Source of the DNA: a virus
Direction: 5' to 3' (one strand)
Length of the DNA stretch: 32,258 nt
IMG/VR virus record: IMGVR_UViG_3300020442_003628
Span: 1-32,258 of that record
Below the pieces are notes generated by a model. That model did not search any database and was not told the DNA's origin. It saw only the letters and a list, made by a program, of their open reading frames with translations. Below, piece by piece: positions 9,200-22,530 of the stretch. Positions within the stretch are counted from its first letter, which is position 1. Each line of letters opens with the position of its first letter. The position numbers and the translations under genes are program-made.

Positions 9200-9491
9200 T
9201 CTCTAGTTCCTGGTTCTCTTGATACGCTGAGCTGTAATCTGTAGTTGCGGTTTGTGTTTGAAAGAGCTGGTAAAGCTCTCCAACCAATTGACCTACACCT
9301 TCCATCACTTGTCCCATAGCCACAACTTGATTAGAAAGTTGAGCAACTTCTTGACGAAGTGCAATGGTGTGATCCATCAGTGACGGCGGACGAGTGATGG
9401 GAGCAGGTGCCTGAGCAGCTTTTGCTCCTGCGACAAGTTGATTGATTCGCTCCTGCATTTCAGGAGGAAGATTTTGCATAGCTGAATTCAT
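9189..9491 (-). CDS. Hypothetical coiled-coil protein, 100 aa
   Basis: MNSAMQNLPPEMQERINQLV is followed by an Ala/Pro-rich linker, then a heptad region (IALRQEVAQLSNQVVAMGQVM) and an acidic tail ending ESDY. It is probably an oligomeric helical protein. Its ATG is coupled to the preceding gene (TAATG), with GAGGAG just upstream. It lies between an SSB-like gene and the exonuclease, so a recombination accessory role is possible, but no homology is recognised. Confidence 0.65.
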   Translation of the reverse strand: MNSAMQNLPPEMQERINQLVAGAKAAQAPAPITRPPSLMDHTIALRQEVAQLSNQVVAMGQVMEGVGQLVGELYQLFQTQTATTDYSSAYQENQELESDY

Positions 9492-9676
9492 TAGAACTCC
9501 TCTTTAAGTTGACGGGTAACGACTTCACCTACGAGCTCTTCAAAAGCTCGACGAAGTTCATATTCAAGATCATCCCGATCTGCTTTGGCACGGGTGATAG
9601 TCATAGTTGGGAGCTGCAGAGTACAAACAGCCTCATGCAGTCCCAAATCATTTTTAGTAATAGTGAGATCAATCAT
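9491..9676 (-). CDS. Hypothetical protein, 61 aa
   Basis: MIDLTITKNDLGLHEAVCTL begins with a beta hairpin and ends in a charged helix (DRDDLEYELRRAFEELVGEV). I chose ATG at 9676 over the in-frame TTG at 9682. It follows the SSB-like gene by two bases and is coupled to the next gene. The family is unknown. Confidence 0.6.
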   Translation of the reverse strand: MIDLTITKNDLGLHEAVCTLQLPTMTITRAKADRDDLEYELRRAFEELVGEVVTRQLKEEF

Positions 9677-9678
9677 TT

Positions 9679-10416
9679 TCAAAATTCGGTTTCAGGTTCA
9701 TCTTTCTTTGCAGCTTTAGTAGTGAGAACTGTGCTGCCACGCTTATCTACTCCACCAGCAGGTAAACCTTTTTCATCAACTTGCTTTCCATCAAAAGGAT
9801 CTTTCCCTTCAAAGAAGTTAGGAAGCCAAATTGAATCTTTCTCAGATGCCCATTGATCCACGATTTTCTGTGGAACTTTTCGCACCTTCGGTAGGATGCT
9901 GTATGAAGTTTCCAGACCAGCTCCCTTACGGCTGATCTTAATCGAGAAGTTAGCGAGTCCATCTTCAGTCCAGGTATAGTCTTCAATCTCTTGAAGGATT
10001 TCAGTCAACTGATCGCGCAGAGATTTCTGCTCAATAAACAGAACTTCAAGACGACCACGTGCAGCAGATGTGGCAACCCAGGCTAGAAACCTGCGTGGTT
10101 TGACGTAGGAGCCATCAATTTTTGGTCGATCTGGTTTGGACCAGTCAGTTTCACGAGCGAGATCGCTAGGAGTCCCAGGATGAGTGCGAGTAACAACGTA
10201 CCCATTGAATTTGAGCTCACCGTCTGGACCTGCTGCTTCGGAGGCGTACTGCCAACCCATGATTGCATGGCCTGTTTCATAGCAGCCGAGAAGTCGAAAC
10301 TCTTCACTTTCACCATCTTTGAGGCTACTTGGTTTCCAATAAGGCTGAGGTTCTTTGGTTTCAATTTTATCTTGATTTTGTTGGAGTAATTCGGGTGGTA
10401 AAACTTGCAGTGCCAT
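9679..10416 (-). CDS. Putative ssDNA-binding protein with acidic tail (245 aa)
   Basis: The body (residues about 25-215) starts PYWKPSSLKDGESEEFRLLGCY and has many beta strands with aromatic and basic residues. The tail is Lys-rich and then acidic, ending DEPETEF with a terminal Phe. An acidic C-terminal tail closing on Phe is the hallmark of phage SSBs such as T7 gp2.5 and of bacterial SSB. Position supports this: it opens the operon nuclease - primase-helicase - polymerase, where T7-like phages place gp2.5. The sequence does not show a recognisable OB-fold motif by eye, so the call is tentative. Confidence 0.45.
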   Translation of the reverse strand: MALQVLPPELLQQNQDKIETKEPQPYWKPSSLKDGESEEFRLLGCYETGHAIMGWQYASEAAGPDGELKFNGYVVTRTHPGTPSDLARETDWSKPDRPKIDGSYVKPRRFLAWVATSAARGRLEVLFIEQKSLRDQLTEILQEIEDYTWTEDGLANFSIKISRKGAGLETSYSILPKVRKVPQKIVDQWASEKDSIWLPNFFEGKDPFDGKQVDEKGLPAGGVDKRGSTVLTTKAAKKDEPETEF

Positions 10417-14810: not shown

Positions 14811-15233
14811 TTATTTTTTAGTAGAAACTTGGGGAACACAGACGCTGAGATCTGGCTTTCGGTAGTTTGGACCTTTCAGAACCTTGCCATCTTCTCTGAA
14901 GATTGCTTGTCCGTTTTCATCTAGTTTACTCATATTAGAGTCGAAAACACGGAACATTGCTTCGTCCAAATCAATGTTGAATGCAGCAGCTAGCTGATAG
15001 CAAACAAATACTAGATCGGAAAGTTCTTTAACAAGATTGACCCGCTTATCCATATCATCAGGAGATTCCATCAGATCTTCTGCGGCATCAAACAATTCGC
15101 AGGCCTCTTCTTCAATGAGGTCAAGCTGCATATCCCAAAGCTTCTTTTTAATAAAGCCTTGAGTGGCGATATTGTCTAGACATTCTTGCCCAAAAGTTTC
15201 ACGGAAAATCCGTGCATGATCACCGAGGTTCAT
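14811..15233 (-). CDS. mazG: MazG-like NTP pyrophosphohydrolase
   Basis: A 140-aa all-alpha NTP-PPase. The ExxE...ExxD metal motif is visible as E43-x-x-E46 (EEEACEL) and E70-x-x-D73 (KELSDLVFVCYQLA). The C-terminal block VFDSNMSKLDENGQ...GKVLKGPNYRKPDL is typical of phage MazG-like proteins. Family members hydrolyse (d)NTPs to monophosphates; cyanophage MazG prefers dGTP/dCTP and may recycle host GC-rich DNA. It lies 4 bp before nrdA and is surely co-transcribed. The symbol reflects the family, not proven orthology to E. coli MazG. Confidence 0.9.
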   Translation of the reverse strand: MNLGDHARIFRETFGQECLDNIATQGFIKKKLWDMQLDLIEEEACELFDAAEDLMESPDDMDKRVNLVKELSDLVFVCYQLAAAFNIDLDEAMFRVFDSNMSKLDENGQAIFREDGKVLKGPNYRKPDLSVCVPQVSTKK

Positions 15234-17314: not shown

Positions 17315-17475
17315 TGGATTAATTCGAGATAGTCATTTGGATTAGCTACAAAATGATCAAGCATGACAAGGAGGCTTGCCACACTTGTATCTTTTGTTTG
17401 GATTGGTAGGTTTAACAAGACTGAAGTCAAGTACCTACGTGTTGTTTGAAGCTGTGCAATTGAGTCGATGCTCAT
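17299..17475 (-). CDS. Hypothetical protein, 58 aa
   Basis: MSIDSIAQLQTTRRYLTSVL then LNLPIQTKDTSVASLLVMLDHFVANPND. A short helical protein. The ATG overlaps the stop of the acidic protein gene by 4 bp (ATGA). The family is unknown. Confidence 0.55.
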   Translation of the reverse strand: MSIDSIAQLQTTRRYLTSVLLNLPIQTKDTSVASLLVMLDHFVANPNDYLELIQCQEQ

Positions 17476-18041
17476 TCAGATTCATCAGAGGTTTCTGTTA
17501 GATCAATAGTGTTATCTACTTCACAGGCATACTGTTTAACGTATGCATCCATATAGGTGTAAAGAACATCCCAGCTAAAGGACTCGTCACTATTCATGTG
17601 ATCTGAGACAGAGTACAGTTGTTCTTCCGTCATGTTTGGATATTTCTCACAGAGATAACCAACGGTGTCGAAGATTAAATAACCATCAAGGCTATCGTCC
17701 TCTTCGTCGTAGTCATCGTCCTCGTCCTCATCCTCATCCTCATCCTCGTCTTCATCTGGGTCATCGTCTTTGAATCCGACGCCACTTGTATCGTCTTCTC
17801 CGAGATTAACGCTAGGATCTTGTTCAGCGAGAGTGTATACCCACTCATCAATCTGCTCAAAAATACTATCAAAGTCGAATTCTTCATCATTTTGACAAAG
17901 ACTCCAAACAGATGTTCTATTTTTGAGAGTTAATGTTGGCCACTCTTCAATCAGATATTCGTTTACATCAACAGTGATCGTAGGATCAAAGTCATCATTG
18001 TCTTCGTAATAGAGAGACCGACGTTCAGATTTAGCACCCAT
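17472..18041 (-). CDS. Acidic protein with duplicated domain and Asp/Glu linker, 189 aa
   Basis: Two similar modules of about 46 residues (about 26-72 and 126-171) share YL-x-E-x-x-P, SV, DE-x-F-x-x-D and D-x-x-V in order. They are joined by an almost pure Asp/Glu stretch (residues 92-116). The whole chain is strongly acidic with a DESE end. The duplication is visible in the sequence. DNA mimicry (decoying host DNA-binding proteins) or chaperoning of the highly basic protein at 19188-19955 are inferences from charge alone. It overlaps both neighbours by 4 bp or less, so it is coupled to the SSB-like gene upstream. Confidence 0.75.
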   Translation of the reverse strand: MGAKSERRSLYYEDNDDFDPTITVDVNEYLIEEWPTLTLKNRTSVWSLCQNDEEFDFDSIFEQIDEWVYTLAEQDPSVNLGEDDTSGVGFKDDDPDEDEDEDEDEDEDDDYDEEDDSLDGYLIFDTVGYLCEKYPNMTEEQLYSVSDHMNSDESFSWDVLYTYMDAYVKQYACEVDNTIDLTETSDESE

Positions 18042-18685
18042 CAGAAAAGTTCCTCAGTATTGTTGTCTTCAATATTGACCTCATCTACTGTAATAACTTC
18101 TTCTGTAGAAGGTGAGATTGCGTGGCTGATAATTGACACACAATCGCGCAGAATTGTTTCTACTTTTTTGTTGTCACGGTCAGCACGTGCTTCTTTTAGC
18201 TGCTCATACAGGTCAGTATCAGACATTTTGAGATCGCCTGAACGGATAGCGGCGAAGCATGGCTTCATCTTGGATGTACCTTTCCAGGTATCCAAAGTCA
18301 AAGCAAACTCAAGATTGCCCGTCTCAAATGCACCCATCAAACCAGTCAGCACACACTGAGACCAAAGGGTTGTCAAACCTGAAGTGACAAGAATGACAGT
18401 GCCTGAGTTTGTAGTCAGGAAGAGGTTGAGTTTGGTGGACTTGAAGGTGCCAATATCTTCAGCAACGTTGATGCCAGTTACTTTGACATTGCCAAGGCGG
18501 GTCAGTGGCTTGCCGGAGGTTGGGATCGTGAGTGCAACTGGCTCTTGATCATCGCCTCGGTACATGAAGAAAACTGCATCGCTGTCTTTGTTGACACCGA
18601 CACCAATCATCATGCTGACATCAGATTGCTGACCACCAGCAACCAGATCGGAAACAATAGCTGTGTTGTCTTGGAGAATAGTCAT
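18041..18685 (-). CDS. Hypothetical beta-rich protein with SSB-like acidic tail, 214 aa
   Basis: ATG at 18685 (MTILQDNTAIVSDLVAGGQQ) is preferred; an in-frame ATG at 18721 adds 12 residues with no conserved look. The body (to about 150) is beta-rich, with VKVTGINV and STKLNLFLTTNSGTVILVTSG. A charged helix follows, and the last 25 residues are acidic and end EELF. That tail is typical of SSB-type partner-binding ends. No family is recognised. It is preceded by a GCCGCT hairpin and coupled to the acidic protein gene by ATGA. Confidence 0.65.
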   Translation of the reverse strand: MTILQDNTAIVSDLVAGGQQSDVSMMIGVGVNKDSDAVFFMYRGDDQEPVALTIPTSGKPLTRLGNVKVTGINVAEDIGTFKSTKLNLFLTTNSGTVILVTSGLTTLWSQCVLTGLMGAFETGNLEFALTLDTWKGTSKMKPCFAAIRSGDLKMSDTDLYEQLKEARADRDNKKVETILRDCVSIISHAISPSTEEVITVDEVNIEDNNTEELF

Positions 18686-18732
18686 GGAAATGTGTTTGTT
18701 TGACAGTTGCCTTAAAGGCATTGAGAACTAAA

Positions 18733-18748
18733 GCCGCTGTTAAGCGGC
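18733..18748 (-). terminator. GCCGCT-GTTA-AGCGGC hairpin
   Basis: A 6-bp perfect stem with a 4-nt loop, followed on the minus strand by TTT. It separates the 18756 gene from the 18041-18685 gene and is identical in stem and loop to copies at 24831, 29193 and 31056. Confidence 0.7.
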
Positions 18749-18755
18749 ATTTGTT

Positions 18756-18920
18756 TTATCGATTACGGGCAGGGTCTGAGTTCTTTAGAAGAGAAATTTC
18801 TTTAGATACCAAGGCAGCCACATGTTCAAGAACATCTAGTCGATTCTTGTGATGTGTATTGCACATAGGAACTATATAGTTCACACATGCTTGTGCAATT
18901 TCTTTTGTTGTATATCCCAT
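18756..18920 (-). CDS. Hypothetical protein, 54 aa
   Basis: MGYTTKEIAQACVNYIVPMC then NTHHKNRLDVLEHVAALVSKEISLLKN. Helical, with CNTHH that could bind a metal. Its ATG overlaps the upstream TAA (TAATG). The family is unknown. Confidence 0.6.
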   Translation of the reverse strand: MGYTTKEIAQACVNYIVPMCNTHHKNRLDVLEHVAALVSKEISLLKNSDPARNR

Positions 18921-19090
18921 TAAACAGTTGCTGCTAGTTCGCCGTTCAATTCAGCAAGCTTTGTTGCTGCTAAGCATTCGATGCATGTCCATGCCAACTG
19001 GCCAGATACTTGTTCTTTATCGCAGAAATATTCAGTTGTGTCTTCAATGATCTCAGTGAGTTCTGTGAGTTGTTCTTTTGATATATGCAT
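18920..19090 (-). CDS. Hypothetical protein, 56 aa
   Basis: MHISKEQLTELTEIIEDTTE followed by YFCDKEQVSGQLAWTCIECL. Acidic and helical, with three Cys (a CIEC pair and a lone Cys). Coupled to the next gene. The family is unknown. Confidence 0.6.
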   Translation of the reverse strand: MHISKEQLTELTEIIEDTTEYFCDKEQVSGQLAWTCIECLAATKLAELNGELAATV

Positions 19091-19138
19091 TCTTTGCAAA
19101 ACTGAAGTATGGGCTGATTAACCCATGACATAAATATA

Positions 19139-19154
19139 GCCGCCTTTCGGCGGC
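19139..19154 (-). terminator. GCCGCC-TTTC-GGCGGC hairpin after the basic repeat protein
   Basis: A 6-bp perfect GC stem, 33 bp downstream of the stop at 19188. The following minus-strand bases are TATATTTATG, a weak U-rich tail. Confidence 0.6.
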
Positions 19155-19187
19155 CATGTATTAGTCGATAGTGACACTTAATGAAGC

Positions 19188-19955
19188 TTATCTTCTTCTA
19201 CGTCCACCTCTGCGCCCGCCTCTGCGGCCACCACCTCTACGACCACCACGCATACGTGCAGGTTTAGACCTTCTTGAAGTGACTCTTGCCCGCTTTGCCT
19301 TACGTCTTGCACGGATCTTCTTAATCCGCTTTCTAATCTTCATGGCCTTTTGGCGGTTGCCCATAGCCTTAGCTTTCTTGCGCCTCATCTTTAAGCGCAT
19401 AACCTTGCGGTTATTAATTTTAATTCTCCGGGGTTTGCCCATTCTCATAGGTCTGCCCATTCTCATAGGTCTGCCCATCGGCCTTCTACCAGGCTTACCC
19501 ATAGGTCTACCAGGCTTACCCATAGGTCTACCGGGCTTACCCATAGGTCTTCCAGGCTTACCCATGCCAGGAGGACGACCAGGACGACCAGGCTTACCAG
19601 GACGACCAGGCTTACCGGCAGGAGGCTTGCCTTCAGTCATCATTGGAACAGGCTTACCTTCAGTCATTGAAGGAGGCTTGCCTTCAGTCATTGAAGGAGG
19701 CTTGCCTTCAGTCATTGAAGGGGGTGTGCCCATGCTCATGCCCATGGCCATACCGCCCATACGGACGATCTTTCGATCCATGGTCCCTGCTTTAGTAGTC
19801 GCTCTAGCTCCTTGACCTGCTGCTGCAGAAGAGTTTCCAGAATTAAAGGCACCAATCTTGGCACCACTAAAATCAACTTTATTTGTGTTATTGATTCGAG
19901 TGCCTCGTTTGGCAGCCATCCTTTTGCCACGAGTATTTTCTTCTGCAGCAGACAT
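19188..19955 (-). CDS. Protamine/histone-like highly basic repeat protein, 255 aa
   Basis: The protein is built of low-complexity blocks. Residues 1-70 form a small N-terminal part. Residues 77-112 are repeats of PPSMTEGK. Residues 113-160 are collagen-like GKPGRP and then GKPGRPM units. Residues 160-175 are RMGRPM units. Residues 176-233 form a Lys/Arg helix-prone block, and the end is GRRGG repeats closing in RRRR. The composition resembles histone H1/protamine tails, so nucleic-acid condensation is the likely role; it could be packaged or act on the host nucleoid. It lies in the hli/talC block and has no clear Shine-Dalgarno. A repeat-rich plus-strand reading frame opposite it is a mirror artefact. 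Confidence 0.75.
   Translation of the reverse strand: MSAAEENTRGKRMAAKRGTRINNTNKVDFSGAKIGAFNSGNSSAAAGQGARATTKAGTMDRKIVRMGGMAMGMSMGTPPSMTEGKPPSMTEGKPPSMTEGKPVPMMTEGKPPAGKPGRPGKPGRPGRPPGMGKPGRPMGKPGRPMGKPGRPMGKPGRRPMGRPMRMGRPMRMGKPRRIKINNRKVMRLKMRRKKAKAMGNRQKAMKIRKRIKKIRARRKAKRARVTSRRSKPARMRGGRRGGGRRGGRRGGRRRR
19430..19740 (-). repeat. Tandem coding repeats (21-24 bp units)
   Basis: Within the basic protein gene, 21-bp units coding GKPGRPM recur near 19485-19570, and 24-27-bp units coding PSMTEGKP recur near 19635-19725. The units are near-identical at DNA level, so copy number probably varies between relatives by slippage. Confidence 0.75.
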
Positions 19956-20005
19956 AATTAGTATGAATACAAATCTGTATTTAGTTTAACAAGGTTTGAA
20001 CCTAA

Positions 20006-20149
20006 TTATTCTTTAGTGCTGGTAGAAGTTTCTTCAGCAGGTGTTTCTTGAGGTGCGGTAGTTTCTTCGATTTTTGCCGGAGCTCCACCTACAACGGGGC
20101 GACGGTTATAACGTGTGGCTGCTGCAGCAGCTTCATCTCCTAAAGACAT
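20006..20149 (-). CDS. Hypothetical low-complexity protein, 47 aa
   Basis: MSLGDEAAAAATRYNRRPVV is followed by a Pro/Glu/Thr-rich tail (EETTAPQETPAEETSTSTKE). It looks disordered. It lies 39 bp after hli and before the basic repeat protein. No family is recognised. Confidence 0.6.
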   Translation of the reverse strand: MSLGDEAAAAATRYNRRPVVGGAPAKIEETTAPQETPAEETSTSTKE

Positions 20150-20188: not shown

Positions 20189-20383
20189 TTACCAAATACC
20201 AGGGATAATTTGTCCAGTGAGCGCATAAGCACCAAGTGCAGCAATTACTCCCATCATTGCGAAACGACCGTTCATCATTTCAGCTTTTTCGTTGTGAGGG
20301 ATAGCGTATTTTTCATCAATAGTCATCACTGGTTCTTTGGCGTATACGTTTGTACGTCCGCCATCTTCAGTAGTTACAGTCAT
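20189..20383 (-). CDS. hli: High-light-inducible chlorophyll-binding protein (Hli/Scp)
   Basis: A 64-aa single-helix member of the chlorophyll a/b-binding family. The signature E35-x-x-N38-G39-R40-x-A42-M43 opens the transmembrane helix (GRFAMMGVIAALGAYALTG). Hlips bind chlorophyll and carotenoid in thylakoid membranes and protect photosystem II under excess light. Cyanophage copies are thought to stabilise photosynthesis during infection. It lies between talC and a small gene in the photosynthesis/carbon block with psbA. Confidence 0.95.
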   Translation of the reverse strand: MTVTTEDGGRTNVYAKEPVMTIDEKYAIPHNEKAEMMNGRFAMMGVIAALGAYALTGQIIPGIW

Positions 20384-20407: not shown

Positions 20408-21061
20408 TTAGTTAATATTGCACTCAATTGCGGCAATATCTTTGTTAAAGATTTCAAGACCAGCATCAGTCAAGATGTGGTTATACATTCCTTCAAAAAC
20501 AGAAGGAGGCATAGTTACGATGTCTGCTCCGTTATAGAAAGAACGAACAGCTCGATGTACGTTTCGAATTGATGCTGCAAGTACTTGAGTTGGTACTCCT
20601 TTTTGTGCATACAGTCCGGCAATACCTCTTACCACTTCCAATCCAGCTACTTGCTGATCATCAAGGCGTCCAACAAAAGGGGACACATATGTTGCTCCTG
20701 CTTTAGCAGCCAGGATTGCTTGAGGGATAGTAAAGATCAACGTTACATTGGTTCGAATACCACGTTTTGAAAGCTCTTTGCATGCCATCAGACCACAACG
20801 GGTCATTGGCAGCTTGATCGTGGCAATATCTCCAAATGTGTTTGAGAGGTGCATTCCTTCTTCAAACATTTCTTGAGCTGTGCCGTAGACTTCCATACTG
20901 ATGTCTTGGACACCAATATCGGCAAGCTCTTGGTACACCTCATCAGGGTTGCGACCTGATTTACGAATCAGTGTCGGATTCGTTGTCACTCCATTGATCA
21001 AACCTGTCAAGAAGTGCTTGGCAACCTCTTCGACGTTCGCTGTATCCAGAAAGATTTTCAT
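20408..21061 (-). CDS. talC: Transaldolase, TalC/fructose-6-phosphate aldolase type
   Basis: A 217-aa TIM-barrel of the short TalC subfamily. The N-terminus MKIFLDTANVEEV, the TTNPTLI motif (26-32), the Schiff-base lysine K83 in TIKLPMT, and GATYVSPFVGRLDD are all present. Cyanophage TalC moves carbon through the pentose phosphate pathway and favours NADPH and pentose production for dNTP synthesis over the Calvin cycle. The ATG at 21061 lies inside the 3' part of the upstream gene, which overlaps the first 33 codons. Confidence 0.96.
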   Translation of the reverse strand: MKIFLDTANVEEVAKHFLTGLINGVTTNPTLIRKSGRNPDEVYQELADIGVQDISMEVYGTAQEMFEEGMHLSNTFGDIATIKLPMTRCGLMACKELSKRGIRTNVTLIFTIPQAILAAKAGATYVSPFVGRLDDQQVAGLEVVRGIAGLYAQKGVPTQVLAASIRNVHRAVRSFYNGADIVTMPPSVFEGMYNHILTDAGLEIFNKDIAAIECNIN

Positions 21062-21450: not shown

Positions 21451-22530
21451 TTAACCAATGGATGGTGCTAGCAAGGCAACAGGAAGACTTTCCGAAGTTG
21501 CCAGGTCAAGCGGGAAGTTGTGAGCATTACGCTCGTGCATCACTTCGATACCAAGGTTGGCTCGATTAAGAACATCTGCCCAAGTATTCACCACATGACC
21601 TTGATTTTCAACAATGGATTGATTGAAGTTAAATCCATTGAGGTTGAAGGCCATGGTGCTGACGCCGAGGGAGGTAAGCCAGATCCCGACGACAGGCCAA
21701 GCTGCGAGGAAGAAATGCAGCGAGCGAGAATTGTTAAAAGAGGCATATTGAAAGATCAAACGACCGAAGTAGCCATGAGCCGCGACGATGTTGTATGTCT
21801 CTTCTTCTTGGCCGAATTTATATCCTTGGTTCAAGCTAACTTGTTCCGTTGTCTCACGGATAAGTGAGGAAGTAACCAGAGAGCCATGCATAGCGCTAAA
21901 CAAAGCGCCACCAAAGACTCCAGCAACACCCAACATATGGAATGGATGCATAAGGATATTATGCTCTGCCTGAAAGACAAGCATAAAGTTGAAAGTACCG
22001 GAGATGCCAAGCGGCATTCCGTCAGAAAAGGATCCTTGTCCAAAGGGATAGACAAGAAACACGGCAGCGGCTGCAGCTACAGGTGCGCTGTATGCCACAA
22101 AAATCCAAGGCCGCATACCTAGTCGGTAGCTAAGTTCCCATTCGCGTCCCATGTAACAGAAGACACCAATGAGGAAATGGAACACAACGAGCTGGTACGG
22201 ACCGCCGTTGTAGAGCCATTCGTCAAGACTACCGGCTTCCCAGATCGGGTACATATGTAGCCCGATTGCGTTTGAGCTAGGCACGACGGCTCCTGAAATG
22301 ATGTTGTTGCCCCACATGAGGGAACCTGACACTGGTTCTCGGATGCCATCGATATCTACTGGTGGTGCTGCTACGAAAGCAGTGATAAAACAAATAGTTG
22401 CTGCTAGAAGGCAGGGGATCATCAACACACCAAACCAACCGACATAAAGACGGTTGTTAGTGGAAGTGACCCAGGAGCAAAAGCGCTCCCAGTTCGAGGA
22501 TGAACCTCGCAATTGTGCAATTGTGGTCAT
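21451..22530 (-). CDS. psbA: Photosystem II D1 protein
   Basis: The 359-aa D1 reaction-centre protein. Canonical residues fall at the standard numbers: H118, E130, Y161 (TyrZ), D170, H190, H198, H332, E333, D342 and A344 (the normal maturation site, followed by T345). Glu at 130 is the high-light D1 form of cyanobacteria. No intron or frameshift is present. Phage D1 replaces photodamaged host D1 in the thylakoid and keeps energy supply running. The gene has a 100-bp AT-rich upstream region, no Shine-Dalgarno, and its own terminator right behind the stop, consistent with strong separate expression. Confidence 0.98.

Follow-up and report, generated by a model that had tools for sequence, protein, structure and literature searches.

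The window analysed here is a viral contig of 32,258 nucleotides (32 kb), and its relatives were found in scans of IMG/VR. Its minus strand carries, at 19188..19955, an open reading frame (ORF) with an ATG start that encodes 255 amino acids with a net charge of +70 (Lys 12%, Arg 18%, Asp and Glu together 3%; Trp, Tyr, Cys, and His are all absent). All of the stacked blocks that a first-pass annotation had read in this frame (PPSMTEGK, GKPGRP, GKPGRPM, a Lys/Arg stretch, and GRRGG repeats ending in RRRR) are present in the translation. The protein opens with a segment of 43 residues, MSAAEENTR...NSGNSS (19827..19955), and continues into four kinds of tandem repeat, identified with TRF on the same strand, whose periods are all divisible by three: a 24-bp repeat encoding PPSMTEGK (19620..19721, score 149), 9/18-bp repeats encoding GRPGKP (19572-19616), a 21-bp repeat encoding GKPGRPM (19485-19565, 95% matches, score 148), and an 18-bp repeat encoding GRPMRM (19423..19478). 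The GRRGG repeats and RRRR make up an Arg/Gly-rich C-terminus (19191..19250).

AlphaFold2 predicts that the basic Lys/Arg segment (residues 176–229; 19269..19430) forms a single long α helix, with block-mean pLDDT values of 94–96 over residues 181–220 and 76–82 in the flanking end blocks, and that the protein outside the helix is disordered (pTM 0.26). The winged-helix globular domain of linker histone H1 is absent, as Pfam returned nothing and the model consists of one confident helix plus disorder. The protein likewise had no match in PHROGs or NCBIfam and nothing significant in the PDB, and tblastn of the full protein and of its N-terminal 45 residues against phage records gave no match, a search in which the low-complexity filter may mask matches to the tail. 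A DUF7667 match of the L001 relative was discarded as falling under the curated cut-off, as was an NCBIfam match of one relative to SdrC, which we read as a low-complexity match. Among the papers searched, none describes a cyanophage protein of protamine type.

The genes upstream are arranged in the order psbA, a small gene, talC, hli, a 47-aa gene, and the basic gene; the named genes and the 47-aa gene lie on the minus strand. We assigned psbA (photosystem II D1; 21451..22530) to phrog_182 (E 2e-193), talC (transaldolase; 20408..21061) to phrog_440 (E 1e-86), and hli (high-light inducible protein; 20189..20383) to phrog_178 (E 4e-28); the 47-aa gene (20006..20149) is known from its translation, MSLGDEAAAAATRYNRRPVVGG. 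Downstream of the basic gene lies a terminator-like hairpin, GCCGCC-GAAA-GGCGGC (19139..19154, minus strand), with an equivalent hairpin kept in the relatives. Farther downstream, a pair of minus-strand genes (17472..18721) encodes a protein of 214–226 aa of no assigned family and a 189-aa protein with an acidic Asp/Glu tract (17472-18041); neither has a significant family match. The AlphaFold model of the 226-aa neighbor is poor (mean pLDDT 50.5), and no relative of this protein was found in the genome contigs. The basic gene shares its strand and block with metabolic and replication genes and stands outside the structural module.

A basic gene in a kept slot

A basic gene occupies the same slot in five IMG/VR relatives (L001, L002, L005, L006, and L032), making six genomes with the window, and two further contigs, L010 and L011, begin within it. 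These loci fall into two groups, the window with L001 and L002 (joined by L010 and L011 on the basis of their flanks) and L005 with L006 and L032. Wherever enough of the block could be read, the genes run talC, hli, 47-aa-type gene, basic gene, 56-aa gene, 54-aa gene, 226-aa gene, acidic-tract gene in unchanged order, and psbA lies upstream wherever that region was read. The 47-aa gene adjoins the basic gene in all five relatives with a similar start and a variable end. A search for the pattern LGDEAA returned the known loci and unrelated proteins only, and L007 was rejected as a relative, since its protein appears by eye to be integrase-like and has “RINNTN” in common by chance.

The acidic-tract protein kept nearby in the relatives, together with the Arg/Gly-rich tail and the disorder, would suit a basic protein that mainly binds RNA or ribosomes, or one that pairs with its acidic neighbor, for example in a chaperoned complex or in a condensate formed by phase separation. 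The length of the tract varies between relatives, however, and it is short in L006; we regard such a role as improbable.

In the more distant contig L055, whose 226-aa neighbor is 54% identical, the 47-aa gene is absent and the slot, flanked by hli and the 56-aa gene, holds a 113-aa, H1-like protein rich in Lys, Arg, and Ala (L055:1118-1456, in the coordinates of L060, which is the same contig). This protein lacks the MSAAEENTR start and is unrelated in sequence to the basic protein, and tblastn against phage records gave no match for it, the low-complexity filter again being able to mask some. The L055 slot therefore holds a polycation despite the unrelated sequence.

The basic gene is present in one copy per genome. 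Among ORFs of at least 60 aa in four related contigs, an excess of Lys+Arg over Asp+Glu above 14% in a product longer than 102 aa occurs only in the basic gene and in a second basic frame directly behind it in L006. The length of the ORF is weak evidence for a gene, because the antisense strand is likewise open for 207 codons. The minus-strand frame is nevertheless identified as the coded one by its substitutions over the first 43–45 codons within the group of the window, L001, and L002 (dS 0.74–1.79 versus dN 0.041–0.060) and, between L002 and L010, by a repeat indel of 14 residues that leaves the frame intact. Judged by these coding signatures, the ORF is a genuine gene rather than a chance one.

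A constant N-terminus and a changing tail

The N-terminal segment of the window protein is 95–98% identical in L001 and L002, and MSAAEENTR is invariant across the six genomes. The dN/dS ratio over these first codons is about 0.03–0.06, and by this measure the N-terminus is under strong purifying selection. Beyond this segment no reliable alignment could be made: the whole proteins are 14–39% identical among relatives, and where identity of the basic protein is only 23–24% the flanking proteins are about 75–92% identical. Between the window and L002, for instance, the basic protein is 23% identical, compared to 89% for talC and 92% for the 226-aa protein; between L005 and L006 the corresponding values are 23% for the basic protein and 92% for the 226-aa neighbor.

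What is kept is the composition. The relatives' basic proteins are all rich in Lys and Arg, poor in Asp and Glu, and devoid of Trp, Tyr, Cys, and His, with net charges of +36 to +83, and in each copy the second half is more positive than the first. Lys+Arg amounts to 24–34% and Asp+Glu to 2–8% in the six main proteins, a protamine-type composition, although classical protamines are far richer in Arg. The protamine- or H1-like charge pattern proposed from the window alone is thus borne out as a property of a genuine gene that is kept in the relatives; the compaction of phage or host DNA suggested along with it is plausible. The GKPGRP arrays, in contrast, are found in the window copy only, and the relatives have other repeats in their place, so that the description “collagen-like” holds for the arrays as a surface resemblance private to the window. 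The same superficial likeness is what would favor a collagen-like or fiber-like surface protein; with strong charge in place of such arrays in the relatives and no structural-protein family match above chance, we consider this very unlikely indeed.

The tail would appear to change by repeat expansion and replacement, with selection probably acting on charge and composition rather than on sequence. The 14-residue indel between L002 and L010 is an instance of the repeat copy-number variation that had been anticipated from the near-identical DNA repeats, and the aligned tails of this pair give a dN/dS of about 0.2; over the last 40 columns of the L005/L032 alignment, dS is 0.32 versus a dN of 0.063. 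The frame, whose loss in relatives had been raised as a possible objection to the gene, is kept in the window, L002, L005, and L032. It is interrupted at an A10 run in L001 (L001:10780-10815) and near a G5 run in L006 (L006:10660-10690), and in both cases another basic frame follows; these interruptions may reflect faulty assembly, genuine breaks, or slippage. Such breaks near homopolymers, as well as the unconserved sequence of the tail, are what would be expected if the tail were functionless low-complexity sequence drifting by slippage and only the N-terminal 40 residues mattered. Drift of this kind is difficult to reconcile with the kept composition, charge, length, and stop-free frame, with the excess of dS over dN in the tails of both pairs, and with the non-homologous basic protein in the L055 slot, and we hold it to be decidedly improbable.

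Promoter-like box and relation to cyanophage S-EIV1

A promoter-like box, TTGTTAAACTAAATA (19978..19992, minus strand), starts 37 nt before the ATG of the basic gene and is a variant of a lineage-wide motif, TAGATACAATAGATA, found 27–40 nt before the start of genes in G001–G004 (loci L012-L029). At the basic genes, the 14-mer TTG(T/C)TAAACTAAA(T/G) begins 33–37 nt before the ATG in each of the five genomes checked, where no other site with zero or one mismatch was found. We derived the lineage motif by expectation-maximization from the regions upstream of genes other than the basic ones, such that the matrix contains no basic gene. With the modules assigned mainly by position, and the virion module anchored by matches to major head protein, virion structural protein, and tail protein, motifs scoring at least 8 bits precede 47 of the 168 ORFs in the virion module, 9 of the 115 in the replication module, and 18 of the 162 others, compared to 1% of shuffled upstream regions (Fisher p 2e-5 for the contrast between the virion and replication modules). 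Scored with this matrix, five of five basic genes reach 11–12.5 bits (11.5 bits for the window box); L032 scores 10.7 bits, and the 113-aa gene of L055, which stands behind a TTGATACAAT box, 9.9 bits. Scores are low at the neighboring genes (below 2 bits for psbA, talC, and the 47-aa gene; 5.8 bits for hli), and the scored replication genes of the window lack the motif except for one at 14811-15233, which looks MazG-like by eye.

The basic gene therefore carries a box of the virion-enriched class and, given this box of its own and the hairpin downstream, is not obviously part of the psbA/talC/hli block by regulation. Its earlier placement in a photosynthesis block is right as to position and does not obviously extend to regulation. 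The motif may also be a general phage promoter, since nine replication-module genes have it too. From this enrichment before virion genes, with modules that are mainly positional, we infer late timing; S-EIV1 shows no enrichment of the motif.

Two further observations are recorded here. A sigma-factor gene sits in the virion module (L018:13481-14422), and different proteins with a good motif, encoded by several ORFs of G001–G004 (for example, L018:14470-14760 and L021:5531-6211), have a common N-terminal RKAG(D/E) start (MNSRKAGEF, MRKAGELI, MEVRRKAGDML, and MERRKAGDFL), possibly a leader or targeting signal that they share. In contig G003 (L012-L013, L016-L017), the ORFs of the first 24 kb recur, at equal or similar lengths, between about 84 kb and the contig's end; hence, this 106-kb contig probably overruns a circular genome of ∼81 kb or joins two strains.

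The lineage is uncultured and, by its protein matches, related to cyanophage S-EIV1, which is the sole phage record matched by the major capsid protein (66% identity) or by a 752-aa virion protein (49% identity). The psbA gene is common to many cyanophages, and a group of marine genomes that have psbA and hli, G241, has been described as separate from the group of S-EIV1 (PMC5332604). S-EIV1 has no homologue of the basic protein, and because its major capsid protein is so similar, this type of capsid does not generally require the basic protein. The S-EIV1 genome (KJ410740.1; L030) contains a Dps-like ferritin gene (18619-19173) and a match to AdoMet decarboxylase, of the spermidine pathway, in two pieces with an internal stop in each (9406-9722); neither family was found in the relatives examined. 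That Dps-like and spermidine genes stand in S-EIV1 in place of the basic protein is suggestive, as a single comparison with incomplete contigs.

The main rival to a role in the virion is the following. The polycation could act in the infected cell only, unpackaged, where it would coat or condense the host nucleoid, stop host transcription, or organize the phage replication compartment. A location between, and on the same strand as, metabolic and replication genes would agree with such a role, as would the missing gene in S-EIV1 despite the capsid in common and the promoter-like motif in front of some non-virion genes. On the other hand, the basic gene has its own box of the virion-enriched type, a motif that psbA, talC, and all but one of the scored replication genes of the window lack. 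We consider a function confined to the infected cell possible, if somewhat unlikely; the present evidence does not separate it from a virion role.

Proposed function and comparison with known systems

The reading we favor, at somewhat less than an even chance, is that the basic protein, polycationic and mostly disordered, is made late together with the virion proteins and condenses the phage's own DNA through its charge. In this proposal, the conserved N-terminal segment of ∼43 residues probably docks to a phage partner and is followed by a variable spacer rich in Ser, Gly, Pro, and Asn with tandem repeats, then by the long basic helix and the Arg-rich tail. The protein would bind nucleic acid by charge and condense it much as protamines, adenovirus core protein VII, and baculovirus P6.9 do, and would either enter the head or keep replicated DNA in a state to be packaged. 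In favor of this reading are the kept slot, the selected N-terminus, the constant charge and in-frame repeat change of the tail, the polycation of L055, the virion-type box and, as a suggestion, the single contrast with S-EIV1. In a bolder version, which we regard as rather doubtful, the tailed phages of this lineage package their DNA together with a dedicated protamine-like protein whose conserved N-terminal handle bears an exchangeable cationic tail, swapped between species; such a protein would be an independent equivalent, in a bacterial virus, of adenovirus VII and baculovirus P6.9.

To our knowledge, a DNA-condensing role for protamine-like proteins has no precedent in tailed phages. If the proposal is right, a gene that selection maintains for its charge, in phages whose hosts are photosynthetic bacteria, would allow a clear test of protein-assisted DNA condensation in phages, and also of how charge rather than sequence can be conserved in a protein. 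Its virion version would be new, since phage genomes are seen as neutralized by ions and polyamines, with little contribution from basic proteins (PMC3281028); phages with packaging motors are likewise described as lacking the cationic arms that are typical elsewhere among viruses (PMC7096446). Both statements weigh against the proposal, as do the position of the gene outside the structural module and its absence from S-EIV1.

Several known systems resemble the basic protein in part. In sperm protamines and H1 tails, charge is kept while sequence turns over, and the change is driven by repeats; the phage protein is alike in both respects, yet it shares no homology with them and has no H1 globular domain. 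The T4 internal head proteins IPI–III offer an analogous architecture, a short conserved N-terminus before a variable body, in which an N-terminal targeting sequence of ∼10 residues guides entry into the prohead and is cut off by the head protease (PMC7697877). In the virus PBCV-1, A278L and other basic proteins have been proposed to neutralize the large viral genome (PMC3281028). These virion proteins belong to a eukaryotic algal virus, however, and A278L and A282L are larger and have reported kinase activity (PMC3281028). The closest parallels in character are adenovirus VII/mu and baculovirus P6.9, classed as arginine-rich protamine-like viral core proteins (PMC3281028), which are likewise small, Arg-rich, disordered, strongly cationic, and virus-encoded. 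The protein described here has no sequence match to them and differs in being longer, in its Lys/Arg helix and Met/Pro/Gly repeats, and in belonging to a relative of tailed phages.
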